Below, piece after piece: positions 2,431 through 55,833 of a stretch of DNA of 64,000 nucleotides. The notes beneath the pieces were generated by a model. It saw only the letters and a program-made list of their open reading frames with translations. It was not told the DNA's origin and searched no databases. This DNA is from Ephemerocybe angulata (taxonomy: Eukaryota; Basidiomycota; Agaricomycetes; Agaricales; Psathyrellaceae), in the NCBI GenBank assembly GCA_013368325.1, contig JAACJK010000121.1, positions 62,001-126,000 of the forward strand, written 5' to 3'. A program made the position numbers and the translations under genes. Each line of letters starts with the position of its first letter. Position 1 is the stretch's first letter.

Positions 2431-5400
2431 GGATGCTTAATGCTTCTCATGCTAGATTGAGACTCACTATCCTACGCAGATTCCTCCTTTGAGTGTTGAT
2501 CTATTGATGAGGTGCTCCCATTGCTGATCGATGCTTGCTCACTGTGATGCGCTTGGCTGCGCTCGTCGGGAATGCCCTTTTATAGCTGGAAAGTTTCCTT
2601 TTGGGGTAAAAAAGACGAAAAAAGAGCTAACTTAAACACTCTATCTAATACATTCAGGCTTTTCAGAACGGTCTACCCATACATTGCCCATGAATACAAG
2701 TCCTGTTGAAGAACACGCAGAGCACGGGCATAGTATAGCTCGGGGTCACAGCTCACCCTTCGCTGGGGGAGATTGGAAATGGGGGATGGCTTATATATGT
2801 CGTCTCGGCGCACGGACCTTTGACGTGGCATGGAGCAACCGGGCATTCCGGCTGCCATAGGTGTGTCCTCTTCGCTTCCCTTGCACCTGGAGGCAATAAT
2901 CAGTCCAGGTGGCACTGCATTGATTATTGACTCCAGGCAGCCGGCAAGACTACTAACACTGTTATTGCTGTCCTTGGTGTGCCGTGTATTGCATTTTCTC
3001 CTGTCTTTCTCATTTTACCAGAATGCTAACATGTCTTACCTTTAGGTTGTGTATATTGGAGGGACTTGGCTACAGGAGGGGAGAAAGTCTAGTTATGTAG
3101 ACCCCTCTGTATGTACGTACAACTTGATTCTTTGACCATGCTGTGTATCTATAGTTAGAATAGCACGGAAATCAATTGCTTGGATTGTTCTCCCATGTAC
3201 ACACAAACCGCCCTGAATTGGCTTGGCTCAGGTCTGGAACGACCTGCTCGGCTCTCGTTCATTTGCCGCAAGAACCGCATCCGAGTCCCGAGTCGTTTCA
3301 GCTTTGGAAAAACATTCTCCTTGTCTACTCGATCATCCATGTCCTTCCCCACTTCATTCCCTCCCCGCCACCGCACTCATTGCACAGAATTGAATCATCC
3401 ACCCTTTATTATCGTTGAAGCTTTCTCGAGCTCGTGCAACTTCATGGCTCCAAGTCGACTCACGTCGACCCCACGACTCGGAGCTTGCTTAGCGGATGAA
3501 GATATGTTGCCACTTCTCCCCGTTCAGGCAACGTTCAGGTCTGTTGGTCACTGTTCCATTGTTTTTGTCATTCTAAGATGCTGTGAGACAACTCATGCGG
3601 ACGGAGCTCGGTGACTGCCAGCGGGACATCCATGTGACAACACGTAGGACAAGGTTCGTCAATGCCGAGTTGTTCTACCTCAAATGCGTTAACCCTCTGA
3701 CTAGCGGCTTGCCCGACACCATGACACAATGGTCCTTCCCTGCAGAGAGGTTTCTATCGGACAGGTTTCTATTGTAAGTTCATCGTGTTGCGTGCATCAG
3801 CCTCCCCTGACTTTTGGTCAAGTCCACCCACTGCCGCAAAATGTTGACTTCAACGTGACCTCGCCCCACCTGAAGCTGCCGACCAACGGGCCAAGCGCGC
3901 TCCGCTCACCGGAAAGATTTATGTTGCAGAACGGCCACCACGGTCCAACAATGACCTTCAACCCTGCCCGATGTATGACCTACCAGAACGGTGACTTCGG
4001 CCCCTCAAAATGGCGATCACATCTACGCCGGGAGCGTTAAAGTCGACGACACCGGGCTGCCCCTCTCGCGGGAAGAATTTCTGTTGCGGAACGACACCAT
4101 TCGCCGCTGGGCATCCACGCCGGTCTCCTCGACGCCCACGCATCCCTGCCGCTCGCTTCGCTCGCGGGAGCCATTTCTGTCGTCTTCGTGCCACCGACAC
4201 TGTCACACCTCAGATTTGGCAAGTCAATTGCATCCTATCAATTCGGTGACATTGCTGATCATGTCGATATTCTGACAGGCTCGCGAAGAATACACTCGCT
4301 CTGCTCGCAGGCCCGCGCCACGTCCCGAGCATCTAGCCGTCCCACTCCAGGCCCGTCGCCTTCCCCTCTCTCTTGCAGACTCGTCCTCATCATTCCATGC
4401 ACAAGCCGGTCGCGGGAAATCGATCCATACATACATTGTCGATCGACGCGCCAGGACCACCAACTTTGGCACCGTCAAGGCATTCCTTTCGTCATCCCCG
4501 GTAAGTCAGATCTAATCAGCTCATCGTCTCATATACTAATTCCAGCGTGTAGGCACGTTCACTAAACCTCCATGGTTTACTCGGCTGCTGCCGCCAGGCG
4601 CAGCACTTCGCTCACGCCTGACGTCGCTCGGCCCCGCTAGGACTCGCGGTGCCAAGGACACCAACAGTAAGTTTTCACGGTGCTGCGATTTTCCCTGGCA
4701 CACTCTAAGCGACTTTCAGATCCTTTTCCGAACACCAAGCGCATGAATTTGGTAAGATAGTGGCACCCTTCCCATCGCAGATCACGAATTGGTGCGCACT
4801 CGTTCTCGGCGCCCATTACAACACGGTATGTCATCCATGACTGATTGGAAACTCTAATTAATAGATAGTGACAACGTCCGCTTGGGATTGGCTTCGGGAG
4901 ATCGGCGGGAGCAAACCAGGTCCGAAGTCCGTAATTTTAGACTGAGTTTTCCGTAGACTGGCTCTCTAATCTCCTGCGTCTAGATATGGATGCGCCCAAG
5001 GCCTGTTTTCCGGACGAACACGCTGCGAGGGGCAACCGCGCGCACTCCAAGCCCACTCCGGTACCTACGGAACGTCAACTCGCTAAGTAAAGCCGTTCGT
5101 TCGCGCTCACACAACAATCATGATGCCGGATTGCGAGCAACGGATTACGAGCGATGGAGGGCTTAAATTTAGTTGATAATTGCCGATAGTATGGCATAAG
5201 TACGTACAGTAGGTTTCAGCGGTGAGTACCGAGCAAGGGATGACGGAAAGGGCGAGCGGAGTGCGCCCGCTGCCGTGAGCTTCGCAGGCCTTGCCGTCGC
5301 AACCGCCCTTACCACCCACCTTTCACGGTTGCCTCATGGCCCATCCGTCCCTCTCGCTTTCCACGATCAGGTTGGGTTATTTTTTGTAAGGGCTCCAAGG

Positions 5401-6971
5401 CCCATGTACGTTACCCCCATTCCATGCGTCCCTGCGCTAACGCGTGCGGGTACGCCGGAATGTGCTCGGAATTGTATAAATCACACTTTCTTGCATATCA
5501 CACTTCTGCAGACACCTCCGCACGGTTAGGCTAGGTAAACTCAACGTTACGGTACGTAGGGAAATAAAGTTTTCTGTGAGGAAGCCCATTTTACGGCCGG
5601 GCCGATCCAATGACGCAGATCGCATGCGCGTGTCGACGGGCGCTTATTTCGGCGCCAACGAAACGGGGCGTGTTGCGCACAATATACGGCGAGTTAAACA
5701 CGCCAGATTGCACTGAAAATCCTTTTGGTGTATACTAGGCTTACCCACGAGCTCTCCACTACCCCGCATGAGGCGAAATTCCTCTCACACAGCCGGAATC
5801 TGGGGCCAAGGTCTCGTCCTCACAGTGTTCGTTGCAACGCCGCAATTACACGACTTCCAGGATTCTAGACTAGCTTGAGCTGAAGTATCATACGTACTGA
5901 TGCTATCGTAATGCTGTCATTGGTCCCGAGTCTAAGCTGGGAAGAGTGTTCAATGGAGAGCGGGACATGGAAACCGGGTTCCGGGAGAGGAACATCGCGA
6001 ATGCACGATTGCGCTTTGAGCGTAATTCCATCCTCGCATGAATATATAGAGACTCGTGAATACCTAGAATACACGTATATATACCCCTATCTGACGCATG
6101 GATGTGGTTGAGAGTTCAAGTGGAAGGAAACACTCACGAATTGGATCTCGATGGATTCCTGCAATGCTCCTCCTCCTGGCTGCACGCACTCGAACAACGG
6201 CACTTGCACCAATCCAACATACTAGCTGGTGACATATCTGTCAAATATAGCCGAGAAAACCGTCAGGGTGAATGTTCATATAGCGCCTCGGGTATCCAAG
6301 TCGAAAATTTCCTTGACATCGAGTTTGTGGCCTGGAATACGACGGCGAGGAGATAGGCCCGAAATACGCATCGTAGAATGAATCTGAAGTATTGTTAGAT
6401 AGCCTTACCTCATATACGTACGTATTTACACCAATTAACGTCCTCCGATTGCGCCAAGTCGCTCTCGATGAGTTTGAGCGAGCGTACAGATGCGTATGCG
6501 CACAGACGCGTATATCGCACAACACAGCACCATTGACGACTCAGCGTGCACAGGTGACCTCCAATACCCTACCCCCTATACTACCCTATGCTGAGAACCA
6601 ACCTCCCACCCTATCCCATAGCCTTATCTTTACCAAATGCTCGATGAAACAAGTGCTCGGTCCCCTCCTCCTCCTCACCCCATTCGACACAAATGAGCCC
6701 ATTCAAAGTACCACATCCCGCGTTTTCCCTGTCTTGGCACGCTCGGCAACGTGCCATCACTTGACAACAGACAGCTGATATGACCGCTAGGCTGGTTCCT
6801 GAGGGAAAATTGAGCGAAGAGCGAATCGGCGCAGAGGGTTACGCATGTAAAGCGGGCGCTGGGCCGCCTTGGACTCTTCGCATTCGCGGTTCCGTGCATC
6901 CGGCAGGCTGAGACCCGAGATACCTGACGTGTTTTGCGTGCCGAGGCCCGCCGATTAAGGGTGCTCAGCCG

Positions 6972-47466: not shown

Positions 47467-47477
47467 GTGCTTCACGG
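47467..47477 (+). repeat. 11-bp direct repeat at left end of MULE (probable target duplication)
   Basis: GTGCTTCACGG; the same 11 bases occur at 55823-55833. Mutator-like elements make 8-11 bp duplications. Part of this string overlaps the outermost bases of the inverted repeat, so the exact border is uncertain by a few bases. Confidence 0.65.
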
Positions 47478-47503
47478 ACGATTCTATTTGGAAACCCCGT
47501 CTG
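47473..47503 (+). repeat. Left terminal inverted repeat of the MULE
   Basis: Starts CACGGACGATTCTATTTGG and ends GAAACCCCGTCTG; pairs with 55795-55825. Confidence 0.75.
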
Positions 47504-47961
47504 TTGGCCGTAGACCGGGGTTTCACGAGGAACCCTCGCCAAATTGGAGGAAAGCCCGAGGTTCCACCCGGTCCTCAATCCTGCCGGGATACGGACCCAT
47601 ACGGTGGATGGAGCCCGCGCACCGAGATCATGATGGTGTCGATCGGCCACCACCGTTGACAGGTGGGCGCTTCTGGGACGTTAGGGCGCCAAATACAAGT
47701 CATGGCGGCATAGTCTACAAAACTGGTGCATCTATAGCAGTCTAATAAATATAATTCTGTCTGTAGGGCGTGTGTCGAAGGGCTTGGCCTGGTTCCGGAA
47801 TCCAAGCCCCTGTATGAGTTATGAAACGGCGGGACCACTTTAAGCGAGGCGGATGCAGTGTGCGGGATGGGCTGCCTCAGGGGGCGCACTGTTACAATCT
47901 CATTTGCAAATTGTGCCACGGCCGACGGCTCCGACTCCTAAAAATTTCATGAACAAGACGA

Positions 47962-47968
47962 TATAAAT
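47962..47968 (+). promoter_or_regulatory. TATA box of the MULE protease/transposase
   Basis: TATAAAT in GACGATATAAATGG, 83 bp before the ATG at 48045, inside the element. Confidence 0.5.
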
Positions 47969-48044
47969 GGTCAGATATTTTGTGAATGCACGTCGAGGAT
48001 ATCCCCCAGTGCTACTCTCACTTCATCCAACGACACAGCCCACC

Positions 48045-49253
48045 ATGTCACAACCTGCTTTTGATGCATACGCCACCCCTCCCTCTAATGCTCTTTATTC
48101 GGCCAAGTTCTTTCGGGCTCTCACCTTCGGGGAGACTGCTGACGTCGAAGCGGAATATCCTACCCTCGCCTCAGCTGGCTCTCTCCATTCCTGGGTGTTT
48201 GATAGGATGGTCCCGGACAGTGAACTTGCATCCAAAGTTCTCCCCGGCGAAGTTATTCCCTGCCTCGCCGATCTCGTACCCATCATGGCAAAATTGGAGG
48301 GTGCATTTGGTGACGGCTTTCGGTCGCTCGTGGCTGCTTTCTGTATTGATGGAGTTGAGCGTACCGTGGTGTACCATTTCAGAAAGGTACGCAAGCATCA
48401 CATTATTCTGTGTTTATTGTAACCCAATATTGACACTTGCGACACATAGATACGGCTCTTCATAAACGTCAACAACAACCTCAAGCCGGTCCAGTTGTCG
48501 AAGGCCCTTTTTGAGCATGTTGGCGATGCCGAACTTCTCTCTCCTGCCTTGAGACAGCGTCTTCGGAACATCCCCATCCATACCCCTATCTCTGGCTTCA
48601 CGACCGCCTCCTTTTCTCTGTGGGAGCTTGGTTATCTGCGGGGTGAGGAGTGGCTCGAGGAGGACGTCGTCAATGGGCTCTGCGAGCTCATGTACTTCCG
48701 CAACATAGTGGAGTCGGTCGCTCGTGGGGTTAACGAGTCTCGTGCAGTTATTCTGCCCACCTTGCTTTACAGTGAGGCCGTCTACCTCATGGGAGACTCC
48801 ACGGCGCTGAACTCGGAGGGCCCTTCCTCCTTCCCGTTGTCCCCCAACCTCGTTGCTGTCCGAGAGCGCATTCGCGCATCCCATCCCGAGTCGGTGTATC
48901 TTCTTATCTGCAACGGAAGTCACTACTCGGTGGCGACATACCGATCAGCTGATGGAGCCCTGGAGTACCGCGACTCGCTCGGGAACGCCCCTCCAGCAAC
49001 TATATACCCAATCTTCAGCACACTCCTAGAAGGCCTCGATCTTCCTATGCCTTCCTCCCCTCGTCAAATCAAAACAATTCCTGTCCCTCTCCAGCTTTCC
49101 GCGCATGGAAGCTGCGGAGTAGCCACTGTCAACTTCATCGAGCATGATCTGGATCCCACCGTCCCGCTTTGGACTGATATGACGTCGACCTACCACCGTG
49201 ACATCTACCTCCGCAACCTGGACCCTGGTTGTCTACCACCTCTCATCCTTTGA
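48045..49253 (+). CDS. Ulp1-like cysteine protease (C48 type) of the MULE
   Basis: Exons 48045-48386 and 48450-49253 (63-bp intron), 381 aa to the first stop. The catalytic pattern of Ulp1/SENP SUMO proteases is visible in the second half: His in CNGSHYSVATY, Asp in EYRDSLGN, Gln in VPLQLSAHGSCGV and the nucleophile Cys in the same GSCGVATVNFIEHD block. The frame ends RNLDPGCLPPLIL, but the adjacent frame reads LVVYHLSSFDNQS, which fits the expected end of the domain better. That frame then splices (intron 49264-49329) in phase into the transposase exons. The exon length to 49263 (814 bp) is one base more than a multiple of three, so a one-base insertion near 49226-49234 is likely. Ulp1-type enzymes remove or process SUMO-like modifiers. 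Confidence 0.75.
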
Positions 49254-49329
49254 TAACCAATCCGTGAGTTCGACCTCATTTTCAATTCCTTTCTGTTTCT
49301 TTTCTGACATACATCATTCGGAATCACAG

Positions 49330-52300
49330 AACTCTAAGCGTTGGAGTACAAGCGCGCGTCTCGAAAGTGTTCCGAATGGCAACTGCAAGTCCGTTGTCTC
49401 TGTTGGCCCACTTGGTTACAACGACTTCAACCTTCGCTACCCTTTGGTATGTTATCTTGTCCTTCTTATTTTGCATGTTCTTAGAGTATATCCTGGTTAG
49501 AGCGAGCATCCTATCTGGAATTTTGCAAAGGCCGTCGCGACTGAGCCATATGCAGAGCTTGTACGTGCAATCTTGACGATGCTTGCTTCATAAAAACTAA
49601 CACAGCCCTCTAGCGATTCTACCCTGGAGATGGATTGCGCCTTCCATCCGTGTCGCAGCCAAGGTCATGGCTCTCTGTTCCTCCTCCGAGCCCTGCTATG
49701 AAGGTCAAGCAAGAGCATCCCATATCACAGTCGGCTCCTTCGACACCTTCTGCCGCCCGCCCCTTCGCACCAAAGCCAACGTCTGAGCCGAAGCCCAAGC
49801 ATATCGACCACGGCATACCTGCGCCGGCTCTGATCAAGTCCGAATCAAAGCCCGAGGTTATCGACCACACGCCATCCTCGATCGAGTTCAAGCCAAAGTC
49901 CGAGGCTGCAGATCTCGACACACTCGCACCGCTCGTCCCACCCAAGGCCGAATCAACGACGATCCCTCTGACGGTCAAGCACGAAGTCATCGACCTCACT
50001 CTGTCTTCCCCGGTCAAGGTGTCGAAAAAGGAGGAGTCGGATATGCTAGGTGATTTCAGGAGGTGGAACAGCCACTATAAAGTCAACATGCAGGCGGATG
50101 CCTCTACCCATACGGTCCGAGTCGTCATTGACCTCTGCACTCCCACCCCGTCGCCGTCTCCACCGCCGCCTCCACCCTCTTCAAACGTGCCCCCGACTGT
50201 CATCGACCTCTCCACGCCGTCTCCACCTGCATCTCCTCACCTGCCTTCGCCGTCTTCAAACCCACACCCACCTCAGCGGCCGGAGCCACAGCACGACATC
50301 AAACCGTTGCCTTTGATTCAAATTGGCACGGTCTTTCAGAGTCTCGAGGAAGCCCGGGCGTCAATAGAGGGTGTGCAGGAGAAGCTTGGGTTTCGATGGC
50401 GCACTGCTCAGTCCAAGACCAGCGCGGGTGGAGCGAAGAGGAAGGTCACGTACAGGTGCCGTCAGTACTACCACCACACCCCTACACATTCGCCCTATAT
50501 CGACCCCGCCGAACATCGTGAATCGAAGACCGTCAAGTGCGGCTGCAATGCCAGGGTCAACGTCAACCGCATCTCAGGCACCTCCCTCTGGAACGTCACC
50601 CTCGTCGACTTCGAGCATAACCATGAACGCGAGCTTGCAGAGGGCGGTGTTGGCCCCCCACGGCCGACGGAGGACCAGAAGCAGATGATTTCACAGCTCG
50701 TCACCGCATCCCACACCAACTTCAATCGCAAGCAGCTTGGCACCATCCTGAACACCACACTTCCCACCCGCGCCCCCTTGGAGGCTCGTCAAATATCCAA
50801 CATCATGAACGCAGCCCAACGCGAAGCCCGGCGCGAGGTTGAGGCGCTTGGCGGCGACATTTCCAGCGTCCTGGCCAGTCTCCAGGAGAAGAAGAACGCC
50901 AATCCGAACTGGTCGTTCGATGTCCTTCTTGATGAAGATCAGCGACTCTCTGCCCTGTGGTGGTGCGACCCCGTTCAGGCCGAGCTTCTTCGGCGCTTCC
51001 CCGATCTCCTCCTCAACGACAACACCTATAACCGCAATCAATACGGCTACCCCCTCAACATTGGTATTGGCATCGACAACTTCGGGCATTCTCGCAACGT
51101 TTGGTACTGCTTCCAGGAGCTTGAAGATACCGAGACCCACAACTGGGTGCTACGGAAGCATCTAGAGAACGCCGGCCGTGCACCCGAGGTGTTCTTCTCC
51201 GACCGACACCAATCCCTCATCCGCTCTGTTGTCGTGACAATGCCGACGTCTCAGCACATATTCTGCCTCCACCATCTCGAAGGAAACATCACGACCAACC
51301 TTCGACCGGTTCTCGGGCCTCAGTGGGATCCATTCAAGGCAGAATTCTGGGTTGTTTACCGCTCTCCCTCACCTTCAGCATTTGACGTGGCGTGGAACGC
51401 ACTCATGGATCGCTACCCCCGTGCACGCGAGTATATGGCGGATGTCTATGAATGTCGGAGCCAATGGGGATGGGCGTGGCTGTCGACGATGTTTACAGCA
51501 GGAATCCGCACGAACGGGAGGGTGGAGTCGGAGAATAGGGTGAACAAGGAGCTTGGGGGGCCGAAAAAGTCACTGTTGCAAGTCTTCCGTGCTCTGTGTG
51601 AGCGAACGTCGCAGCAGACTGTGCAGGAGATGGCTGAAGTGAGACAGGTGTGTGTTTCTGATATTTTCATCTCTGCCTTCGTACTCCTTATTCTAACGTT
51701 CCCGGTCATACAGACGGCGCAGCGACAGAATGACCGACAGGTCGAGGGTGTCTTTCGCCCAGTTCTTGACCTCGCCCGTGCCCACGCAGGGCCGTTCGCT
51801 CTCCAAGTCATCTACAAGCAGATGCAAGCAAGCGTGTACTACCGCACAGAGGTTGTCCAGCTCCCACATGGCGCAAAGGCATGGGTAAGTCTGGTATCAA
51901 GCCTAAGCAAAGTAAATACTTACTGGCTTTATCCTAGGCTGGAACTATGCTGCCGTCGTCTAGCGAAAGGGGCTTTGAATGGGCAGGAGGCGAAGAGACA
52001 GTAAGTCACTATTTATCTCAAGCCCGTGTTGCGTGCTTATTTTATTTCAATAGAAGATGACAAACGACTTCAAGAACGACGCTGCACATATATCTATTAA
52101 CTGGCTGCTGGATCTCATTAACAGTAGGGGCTTGGTTGCGACCCATGTTCTCAAGATAACGCATCTCGCCACACATGTTTCCCACTATCTCGTTGTGCTC
52201 TCGAAGGATAGGTACATCTGTGATTGCACCATGGGACTAAATCTAGGTATCCCGTGTCGACACTATCTTCAGGCCTGGACAACCTTCAAAGGTCTGCCGT

Positions 52301-53041
52301 TTCATATTGGCCTGGTTCGCCGAAGGTGCGTTTGGCTTTAAACTCATGGAATATTCACTTACTAACCTAATTTCAAAGGTGGTACAAAGACCCTACCCTT
52401 GATACCGAGACGACGGCTTCCGTTGCATTTAGCCATGCTGGTGCAGCTCCGGCTGACAACACGAGTACTGTGACTCTCCCCACCGTCCTCCTCGCAAACC
52501 CCCTCGAGCGCTCGTCCATTCACACAATTCCCCCGCCCTCTACTCAGACCATCAACGCGCGTGAGGTCAATCATGAAGCTCAGGCTGTGCTTCGGCCCAT
52601 GTTGGAGTCTGTGCGCACCATTGGGGACCTGGACGACGTGTTAACAGATCTTCGAGCGTTAAAGTCAGTAATGATTCTTATAATTCCACGCTCATACCAT
52701 CCTAATGAGATCATCTTAGACGCGCACGCATCGAAGCTCAGAGTGAAGGTGGAGTCAGAGATCCCCCGGTGCTCAATCCAAAGGGACGACCTCGAGTGGC
52801 GCGGATTACCGGGCGCGTAGAAGGAGGTAAACCGAGAGGCGGTGGACCCCCTCCAACGCCAGGGCGCGTTTCTCGAAACGCAGCTGCAGAGCAGCAGTCG
52901 GATGCCCCGCAGGCGCCCTTGGACGCCCAAACCCAGCAACAGCCGGCGCCAGCCACTGGTGGCACTCAACGGCGATGTGGATTGTGCCGGGAGGTTGGCC
53001 ATAATCGCAACGGGTGCCCCTTTAAAGGGAACCTTGCCTAG
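49330..53041 (+). CDS. MULE transposase with FAR1-type zinc finger, SWIM finger, AT-hook and CCHC knuckle
   Basis: Exons 49330-49446, 49501-49560, 49614-51647, 51714-51884, 51938-52000, 52054-52325, 52379-52663 and 52720-53041 all join in phase. The first Met inside is at 49635. Order of domains: Pro/Ser-rich linker with VIDL-type motifs; a WRKY-GCM1/FAR1-like finger (YRCRQYY, VKCGCNARV, EHNHE); the MULE catalytic core with LNDNTYNRNQYGYPL (Asp1), EVFFSDRHQSLI (Asp2) and GRVESENRVNKELGG (Glu); a SWIM finger (YICDCTMGLNLGIPCRHYL); an AT-hook-like KGRPRV; and a terminal zinc knuckle (CGLCREVGHNRNGCPF). All expected DDE residues are present. It binds and moves the surrounding element. It probably began as the C-terminal part of a fusion with the protease upstream. 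Confidence 0.88.
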
Positions 53042-53146
53042 GCACTGGTGACTGCATTGCATTGGAAAGTGTATGGTACTGTACGCTATATAGTCAACAA
53101 GATATCTATTTGTGTTCTGTGAATGTTCTGTGTCTCCCTAAGCCCT

Positions 53147-54875
53147 TCAAGAATCCTGAGTATCAGTTAGAGGCATCGCAACGGACTTGCCGGTGAGCTC
53201 GTCCAGTGTACTGATGAGCTCCAAAGATTTTTCCCAGCGTGCCTCCTTCTCCTTCATCTTCTCTCGCCAGAGCTTTTTGCTCTTCTTGCGCAGTGCCGCC
53301 TCCGTTCGGAAACCATTGTCGACATAACGGATGAGGCCACCGGGCACAAACTGTGTAATAGAGAGTCGAGTTTCATTCACTCCAACTGGCGTGTTGCCAT
53401 GGGTGAAGAGGGCGGACGGGATGTAGATAGTGGATCCAGCTGGAAAGCGAATGTGCACATTGAGCTCTTTAATGATAAGGTGCCCGCCCTTCTCTGCATT
53501 AAACGTCCCAAGGGCTTGAATAGCACAGAACGTATGCGGCGCATTCCCAGAGTCCTTGTGCATCTTGCACGCTACCCGAGGACCGAAGTTAAATGCCGCA
53601 CACGGATAGACGCTCGCAGCCCAGTTTTTCTTCGCCTTCAACGACGGGTTATGATCGTAAAGGGCACGAAGCTTTTTGTCGACATCCTCGTAAACACGGG
53701 GAAACCAAAGTTTGAAGGTGGCTGATACAGCAGTTAATACTATGAAGTTACGCATTGCTGAAGAAGTGCATACCGTCTGCAAATGCAGTGACCCTCGTTA
53801 TATCGTCGCCCATTTACCATCTTTCCTGGAGCTTTCGCACCACCTCCATAGTAAATCCCGACATTAAGCGCTGCACTGTTAGACGATCGGTAATGCTCGA
53901 GCTCCTCGGCTGTGAATCCAGCCTTTTCCCGTGCTTCGAGAATCACCTCTGCAGCCTTTACGATCGACTCCATGTAGCCTGGTATGTTGGAACCTCCTGC
54001 GAGGACAACCAAAATCTTCTTAGTCCGCCTCTCTACATATACCTCTGGAGTCCTAGTTATGCGTTAGAGATGCCACAAGTAGTCACTGAGGAATTCGCAC
54101 GTACTTTCCATCCCAGGGCACCTCGACCGAACCCGCCGCCTCCAAAGCCTCGAGAGAGCAGTCTTCTGCTCCCAGCTCCACACGTACGTCCTTCGCAACC
54201 TTTTGACCATGATACCCACAGGACGTTGTGGGAAGGTTGACGTATCGAATAATGGGTTCGAGGGAGGGCCCGGGCTTGTCTGGGATGTACTTCTCCTTGA
54301 CCTTTTCTCTAGGCTCAGGCCGGCCCTTTTCCTCCTTATCGTGCTTGCGCTTTGCAGCACGACGGCTATGGTTACGCTTAGCGTTCTATGAGTATTCATT
54401 TCATTAGAAACTGCTGTCAAGGGTGACGCGTGAGTTGTTTTCTACATACCTTGCCTTTACTGCTCGTTGCCTCGTGTGATTCCAGTTTAGGCGCTGGTTG
54501 AGGCGCCCGGTCCTCATCAATTTCCATTGAGAGGCCAGACTTGTTGGACCGTCCCTTCAATATCTCTACCTTGTCATCGCTCCAAGAGTCCCAGTCGCTA
54601 TTGTCTACGTCTTCTTCGTCAGTGCCTGGCGCCGAGCGCTTCCTTCCTCGGGTGTCTTCGATATGTTCGTCACAATCTAGTGCACAAGCCGCTTGATATA
54701 GTTTCGAAAAGTCGAATGAGTCGGGGGCGGTATGAACGGTGACTGGGCCGCTGGAGGTAATGCCCCTGTGGGCTGTAAGGATGCAGCAGTACGAGGGTAA
54801 CGGTGCTAAACATACCTGCGGCTGCTCGGCACAACCGTATCCTCCATTTACCCTCTGTGAGTTATAAGGTTGCAC
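53147..54875 (-). CDS. TET/JBP-family 2-oxoglutarate/Fe(II) dioxygenase inside the MULE (~523 aa)
   Basis: Exons 54875-54450, 54385-54105, 54052-53818 and 53776-53147 join in phase to 523 codons. The double-stranded beta-helix is in the last exon: AAFNFGPRVACKMHKDSGN with the metal-binding His-x-Asp, FCAIQALGTFNAEKGGHLII, the distal His in SALFTHGNTPVG, and the Arg expected to bind 2-oxoglutarate in NETRLSITQF, then GGLIRYVDNGFRTE. This is the layout of the Agaricomycete TET/JBP family, whose relatives oxidise 5-methylcytosine (TET) or thymine (JBP) in DNA. The N-terminal half has an acidic, then Lys-rich disordered stretch (NSDWDSWSDDKVE; NHSRRAAKRKHDKEEK). The start of exon 1 is uncertain; an upstream intron near 54800 is possible. 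Tail-to-tail with the transposase, 106 bp apart. Confidence 0.82.
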
Positions 54876-55794
54876 AGGTGAGCTGCGCTGGCGGAAAAAT
54901 GTGCCGTATGTACTTGCCTAATTTTTGGTGGGTGGGACGTGCGGCGTAATGGACTCGGATGCCGGGCCTACCAAGATGAACGGTCTGTGAGTTCATTGCG
55001 CCAGGGTTTGCTCATAAGGCTACTTTCAATACTCACAGATAGATGTGGGTCGGTGGGCAGCCCAGTTTTCACGGGCCCGGGTCTGCTGATGAGCTGGCAG
55101 AATAACACAGAGGTTTTGCTGAGACAACTTAAGTGGCTCGTTCTCGCAGGAATAGACGCCCTTCAATGTATAAAGCCCTCAGCAACGGCCCCTGGTGAGA
55201 GGCCCGGATGCGTTGAGCCTACACAATCTGGGGTAGTTTCGATGTTGTGGGAATGCGGGCGCGCCAGAATGACGAGTCAGCAATCGAAAAAAAAAACATT
55301 GCGCTGCAGCGGGCCCTTATGTCCGTCACCGCACCGCGAGAGCCGCGTAACGTTGCGTCTATTTGTACCATTGCACTTCAAGTTGTACGGTACGTACCTA
55401 CGAGGCGAGAGCTATGCTCAGCGGCCAAAATAAAATGTTAACTCCCGAGGGGAGCAGAGAGTAGAACCTTGGAGAGGCCACACGGTATAAATACTTGAAC
55501 ATACAGATACAATAGCAACTAGATAGGTAGCATTAGAAATAGGAATTGAAGTAAGGCATATAGCCTCTGCACTTAATTTGTGTTTAAAGGTCTTCATCTC
55601 TCCGAGCCTTTGCTGAGGGCATCGATCTTTCCGAAAAGCATTGGTGGCCACAATTGGGCCACAACTTGGTGGCCTTGTTGGTGGCGGCCAGTGTGCCTGA
55701 CCACGCCGAGTGCCATCACCACCAACTCCGGAAGAGAGGCCGTGGTCGGATCAAGGGCGGTGTGCGTGAACAGGGTTTCCATACTGGCGTCGCG
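54876..55794. other. Right non-coding part of the MULE
   Basis: No conserved coding frame. Repeated TTGGTGGCC/GGCCAC motifs occur at 55640-55690 in both orientations, and a TATAAAT at 55486. It presumably contains the upstream region of the dioxygenase gene and subterminal sequence. Confidence 0.45.
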
Positions 55795-55825
55795 CAGACG
55801 GGGTTTCTGAATAGAATAATCCGTG
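55795..55825 (-). repeat. Right terminal inverted repeat of the MULE
   Basis: On the minus strand it reads CACGGATTATTCTATTCAG and ends GAAACCCCGTCTG; pairs with 47473-47503. Confidence 0.75.
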
Positions 55826-55833
55826 CTTCACGG
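55823..55833 (+). repeat. 11-bp direct repeat at right end of MULE
   Basis: GTGCTTCACGG, identical to 47467-47477. Confidence 0.65.

Follow-up and report, generated by a model that had tools for sequence, protein, structure and literature searches.

A Mutator-like transposon of Ephemerocybe angulata with a TET/JBP-fold dioxygenase gene aboard

A 2014 paper on TET/JBP genes and Kyakuja-Dileera-Zisupton (KDZ) transposons reportedly formed the basis of Kojima's later work. The part of the later paper drawn on here describes PU, AG, and PE types of TET on ten named transposon lineages and proposes escape from methylation silencing (Kojima 2025, PMC12730594). In these TET-positive fungal DNA transposons, whose hosts include Agaricomycetes, the dioxygenase gene lies beside the transposase gene. 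This arrangement recurs in the element described here, although Mutator-like elements (MULEs) are not named as carriers in that part of the paper; in its main text 'MULE' and 'Mutator' occur 0 times, and 'MuDR' occurs twice, in the introduction and on other matters. No MULE with a TET/JBP gene was found in print in the open-licence PMC literature. The window analyzed here is a stretch of 64,000 nucleotides from the basidiomycete Ephemerocybe angulata (GCA_013368325.1, contig JAACJK010000121.1, positions 62,001 to 126,000), and within it a MULE encloses a transposase module and a gene for a TET/JBP-fold 2-oxoglutarate (2OG)/Fe(II) dioxygenase, a structural reading that we hold with high confidence. 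The element is a new carrier in the known phenomenon of TET genes on fungal transposons; the proposal, in an earlier note on this DNA, that it was a 'second, unrelated transposon' recruiting oxidation of 5-methylcytosine (5mC) is outdated, given the ten TET-bearing lineages named in the available part of PMC12730594.

Comparison of copies sets the ends of the element at 47476 and 55822 of the window, a length of 8347 bp, with the terminal sequences GGACGATTC on the left and GAATAATCC on the right. Its 28-bp terminal inverted repeats (TIRs) are identical at 24 of 28 positions; the left TIR (47476-47503, plus strand) has ends common to the copies on contigs C139, C47, C63, and C13, and the right TIR (55795-55822, minus strand) was placed by inverted-repeat and copy comparison. 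Outside them lies a 9-bp target-site duplication (TSD), GTGCTTCAC, exact at both sides (47467-47475 and 55823-55831). MULE TSDs are given as 8-11 bp, outside the TIRs, in the part of PMC6446971 used here, and the 9-bp duplications fall in this range. The 27/31 inverted repeat previously claimed is real (arms 47473-47503 and 55795-55825) but takes in 3 bp of the TSD, leaving a true TIR of 28 bp. Similarly, the supposed 11-bp direct repeat reflects a genuine duplication but consists of the 9-bp TSD plus the GG of the element's left end. The claim of a single unit enclosing transposase, Ulp1-like domain, and TET/JBP-fold gene is upheld by the true ends.

The E. angulata genome searched comprises 58.7 Mb in 232 contigs, with the element on a contig of 295,046 bases (C179), and since the DNA searches score the best candidates only, copy counts are lower bounds. 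A query of 8353 bases gave one full-length match, the element itself, and the remainder were short. Four short copies are complete at both ends and flanked by 9-bp TSDs of their own: 658 bp on C139 (GGCTGTATG on both sides), 428 bp on C47 (CGAAACCTT on both sides), 1158 bp on C13 (GGATTCGTG on both sides), and 487 bp on C63, where the TSD has one mismatch in 9. With the element included, all five two-ended copies carry a 9-bp TSD, exact in four. Because four further two-ended copies have TSDs of their own, the ends of the element go beyond chance, and the terminal repeats are shared by other copies, against one of the refuting conditions set in the earlier note. The C139 copy is an internal-deletion form, with a left part 98% identical to the MULE and a right part matching at 94% the final 557 bases (55266-55822), an arm that lies upstream of the dioxygenase gene. 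Among the best candidates, none stopped short between the transposase and the dioxygenase. A separate search with the transposase returned one relative elsewhere in the genome (C18, 38% identity).

The transposase is encoded on the plus strand, and the earlier identification of a MULE transposase is borne out by Pfam and by homologs. Its main open reading frame (ORF; 49614-52004, 796 amino acids stop to stop) contains a FAR1 domain (31.9 bits against a cut-off of 28.1) and an RNase H-like region, with the MULE transposase family PF10551 at 55.8 bits against a cut-off of 27.6. The D, D, and E residues align with those of homologs in the contexts LLNDNTYNRN, FFSDRHQSL, and GRVESENR, and we take them to be catalytic. 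Further exons, placed by Pfam and homologs, extend over 52057-53041: a SWIM-like exon at 52057-52326, which is below its Pfam cut-off (13.4 against 19.6) yet alignable with homologs, an exon at about 52377-52667, and a C-terminal part with a CCHC knuckle in the ORF at 52709-53041.

Upstream on the same strand is a Ulp1-like domain (48045-49253), placed by motif and homologs, with exons at about 48045-48386 and 48450-49253. In mushroom homologs this stretch forms the N-terminal part of a single transposase gene. Proteins of 1259, 1308, and 1369 residues from Mycena, Leucocoprinus, and Tricholomella, respectively, are collinear with the MULE from about 48057, with the Leucocoprinus alignment reaching the zinc knuckle near 53020, and the Ulp1-like stretch is conserved in all three (tblastn). 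The alignments break off at 49220 and restart in a different frame (49312 or 49405), reflecting a frameshift or an intron. The label Ulp1-like rests on the motif, a His, an Asp, and a GSCG that we take to be those of such proteases, because no Pfam protease match was obtained at E ≤ 1 among the window ORFs and none in 6 homologs. A protein search with this part alone gave nothing at E ≤ 0.001, under a length filter that left out fused homologs, and its single-sequence structure model had a predicted local distance difference test score (pLDDT) of 37.9. What stands of the Ulp1-like protease proposed earlier is thus a conserved stretch, without a match to a Pfam protease family. MULEs of Mycena sanguinolenta (P0140) and Leucocoprinus (P0179) have the same collinear Ulp1-like and transposase module; unlike the E. 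angulata element, they have no linked dioxygenase evident, judged from locus tags and contigs only.

The dioxygenase gene (53147-54849, minus strand; NCBI model P0001 = D9611_013181), recognized from the NCBI model, fold, and motifs, is arranged tail to tail with the transposase at a distance of 105 bp. It spans several exons and has a start and a stop of its own, and its catalytic exon occupies about 53147-53722 on the minus strand. The core residues reported earlier, His-x-Asp (HxD), the distal His, and the Arg of the 2OG-Fe(II) core, are present, the Arg in 38 of 39 ungapped alignment rows including that of the window, but the gene is not intact. Comparison with relatives places a 35-nt deletion at about 53805 (minus strand): where P0002, P0003, and the C86 copy have twelve residues between NGR and D-I-[ST]-R, the window has 1 nt in place of 12 codons, and the NCBI model leaves the broken stretch out. 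The catalytic exon is open, and its proportions of synonymous and nonsynonymous differences from the C86 copy (pS 0.76, pN 0.19) show the signature of purifying selection and strong constraint, with 5 of 8 pairs computed and synonymous sites saturated in the window's comparisons.

The TET/JBP identity of this enzyme rests on its predicted fold, which is that of TET/JBP proteins. The model had a mean pLDDT of 73.8, with 204 of 471 residues at or above 90 and the broken stretch not included. TET structures took the top ranks in VIA, with a clear gap to the rest, and CcTET, NgTet1, and CMD1 led in Foldseek, CcTET being placed first by these structure aligners; against Pfam, the NCBI model P0001 had no match at E ≤ 0.01. 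The gene belongs to a subfamily that we call W-type, with the signature HxDxxN, Asn at +5, and Cys at +11. All 39 ungapped rows have Asn where TET2 has Asn1387, a residue that contacts 5mC in TET2 and has been reported to stabilize 5mC and block N6-methyladenine (6mA). CcTET of Coprinopsis cinerea (PDB 8jkk, 7w5p) is 15% identical to the window's dioxygenase, and in the W-type its Gly331 and Asp337 are replaced by Asn and Cys, again in 39 of 39 ungapped rows. HxD is equally invariant (39/39). The AG type is marked by Gly or Ser at CcTET position 331 and by Asp at 337, the latter kept in Kyakuja, and the PE type has HxE, according to the available part of PMC12730594, and on these residues the W-type is probably a distinct enzyme class, set apart from both.

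W-type genes are numerous in this genome, with 37 matches at 33 loci after merging of 4 second pieces and with the window's own counted. For at least 4 of the 33 loci a listed KDZ match is no more than 6 kb away, head to head in each case, against a chance expectation of 0.02 per locus; the distances use 104 places from the listed matches of 170, and some KDZ may be missed. A fifth locus (C120) has a KDZ at 9.8 kb and shares long stretches of 97-99.9% identity with the C112 locus. The W-type genes on C28 and C86 are inside a CxC6 element, in both copies found (C28:341210-353565, 12,356 bp, L077+L045+L078; C86:1176702-1187601, 10,900 bp, L079+L046+L080). The ends of this element are inverted repeats of 84 bp at 92%; it encodes a CxC6 domain protein, is flanked by 8-bp TSDs, CCTCTCCC and CGAAGCGC, and may itself be related to KDZ. 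Since both copies have inverted ends, their own TSDs, and a W-type gene, the dioxygenase evidently travelled together with this element. The genome also contains at least 25 Tet_JBP genes over the Pfam cut-off, at least 18 of the 25 with a listed KDZ match no more than 6 kb away. KDZ elements with such CcTET-like genes resemble the MULE in having a TET gene near the transposase and differ from it in transposase superfamily and TET subfamily. In a tree of 45 rows minus 3 without a core match (the close relatives P0006 and L047, and also P0030), the sister of the MULE-borne gene was P0003, an E. angulata protein with a different locus-tag prefix (support 100/98). With those three included, another tree, of 25 selected rows, gave the same sister (98/96). 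The CxC6-element genes form the next group, although support for this broader split is weak (81/34 and 82/75).

Under the explanation that we favor, an autonomous-type MULE, with a transposase module bearing an N-terminal Ulp1-like domain, 28-bp TIRs, and 9-bp TSDs, would have gained a W-type TET/JBP-fold gene between the transposase and the right end. Because W-type relatives occur beside KDZ and inside the CxC6 element, the enzyme seems to be handed from one transposon to another, and the MULE would have picked one up from this transposon-travelling subfamily, by capture from another transposon. The intact enzyme most likely oxidized 5mC in duplex DNA. This oxidation could have made methylation silencing of the element or of its surroundings less effective, which is a plausible role. 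The host genome has DNA methylase domains at 4 loci. Taken whole, with function included, the explanation seems to us moderately probable.

A number of results weigh against it. With one full-length copy found, joint movement of dioxygenase and MULE lacks a second example, and no W-type gene is near the 6 other MULE loci found in the genome, the nearest being 79 kb away. No adjacent locus tags linked 113 dioxygenase matches with 77 MULE matches in other species, in protein searches that each scored about 8000 candidates sharing most words and with contigs and locus tags compared by eye; annotated proteomes may mask transposases, which limits this test. The KDZ-linked W-type genes fall in a different clade from the MULE-borne one, and the CpG ratio is 0.92 in the element and 1.02 in the window, hardly depleted. 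On the catalytic ORF, Tet_JBP (PF12851) reaches 13.6 bits, short of its cut-off of 34.9, and is outscored by the general 2OG family PF13640 (18.9 bits, cut-off 27); among 10 W-type proteins, 8 matched no Pfam family at E ≤ 0.01, and the other 2 reached 18 bits with Tet_JBP. A search of the PDB by sequence returned no TET chain, the best matches being an unrelated designed binder (E 0.027) and a PKHD hydroxylase (1.7). TET2 was only at rank 28 in Foldseek (E 1e-3), after a PKHD hydroxylase, a DNA repair dioxygenase, and a viral prolyl hydroxylase. Template modeling scores to CcTET were low (0.34/0.42), and UniRef labels the relative P0002 a prolyl 4-hydroxylase. Finally, the 35-nt loss shifts the dioxygenase frame just upstream of an intron position common to the C86 copy. 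Since the catalytic exon is open and constrained, this break is probably recent, and with its frame broken the MULE copy is probably a decaying descendant.

The broken frame and the lone full-length copy would also fit a MULE that took up the dioxygenase as a passenger, by a habit of gene capture and with no benefit, the gene now decaying. MULEs are prone to picking up fragments of host genes (PMC6446971, in the part used here), and a limited comparison with other genomes did not show the pairing. The dioxygenase is, however, no fragment but a multi-exon gene with start and stop, its catalytic exon is strongly constrained, and its relatives sit in other transposons; we regard capture without benefit as a tentative possibility. 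Doubt about chemistry is separate, as a TET-fold 2OG oxygenase might act on another base (6mA or thymine) or in the manner of CMD1, which shows that the fold is capable of other chemistry (PMC12730594, in the part available). At the level of sequence the W-type matches no TET whose activity is known, and its Cys at +11 replaces the Asp, Thr, or Ser found in those enzymes; the invariant Asn at the TET2 Asn1387 position argues the other way, and a substrate other than 5mC appears unlikely. Insertion of a KDZ or CxC6 fragment, or of a host gene, into an existing MULE, outside the design of the mobile unit, is highly improbable. It is true that another element houses two of the genome's three closest W-type genes, but no KDZ is among the matches listed and no Plavaka match falls within the MULE, DNA likeness to the CxC6 element is limited to a 438-bp coding stretch at 72%, and the gene lies tail to tail with the transposase at close range.

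The favored explanation, of a gene passed between transposons, adds the MULE to the transposon superfamilies with a TET/JBP gene aboard. Its broadest form, in which an HxDxxN TET class with the conventional TET2-like contact to 5mC circulates among at least two unrelated superfamilies, KDZ-type and MULE, and the CxC6 element, with this MULE the first of its superfamily found to have taken up active 5mC oxidation, stands at about even chances; if true, anti-methylation capacity would be an exchangeable module among the parasites of one genome. This genome holds two TET pocket types, one CcTET-like with Gly/Asp and one TET2-like with Asn and a Cys, both with transposon-tied members, which offers a direct test of whether they oxidize different bases and whether carriers escape methylation better than sister elements.

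Among the 18 Tet_JBP genes near KDZ, 17 have a spacing of 3.9-4.6 kb. One long contig (713731 bases, Mycena crocata) was common to the dioxygenase and MULE matches from other species and was rejected as linkage because it is too long. Two pairs of dispersed W-type near-copies share long flanks, at 97% over 2.8 kb for C125:2290126 and C125:2087189 (L051, L052) and at 80% over 3.5 kb for C107:110627 and C150:76318 (L049, L053), with no listed KDZ match near any of the four. Diverged tandem repeats lie beside the CxC6 gene in both copies of its element (L078, about 143-1189; L079, about 4519-5832), and self-comparison shows shifts by multiples of about 50 bases.
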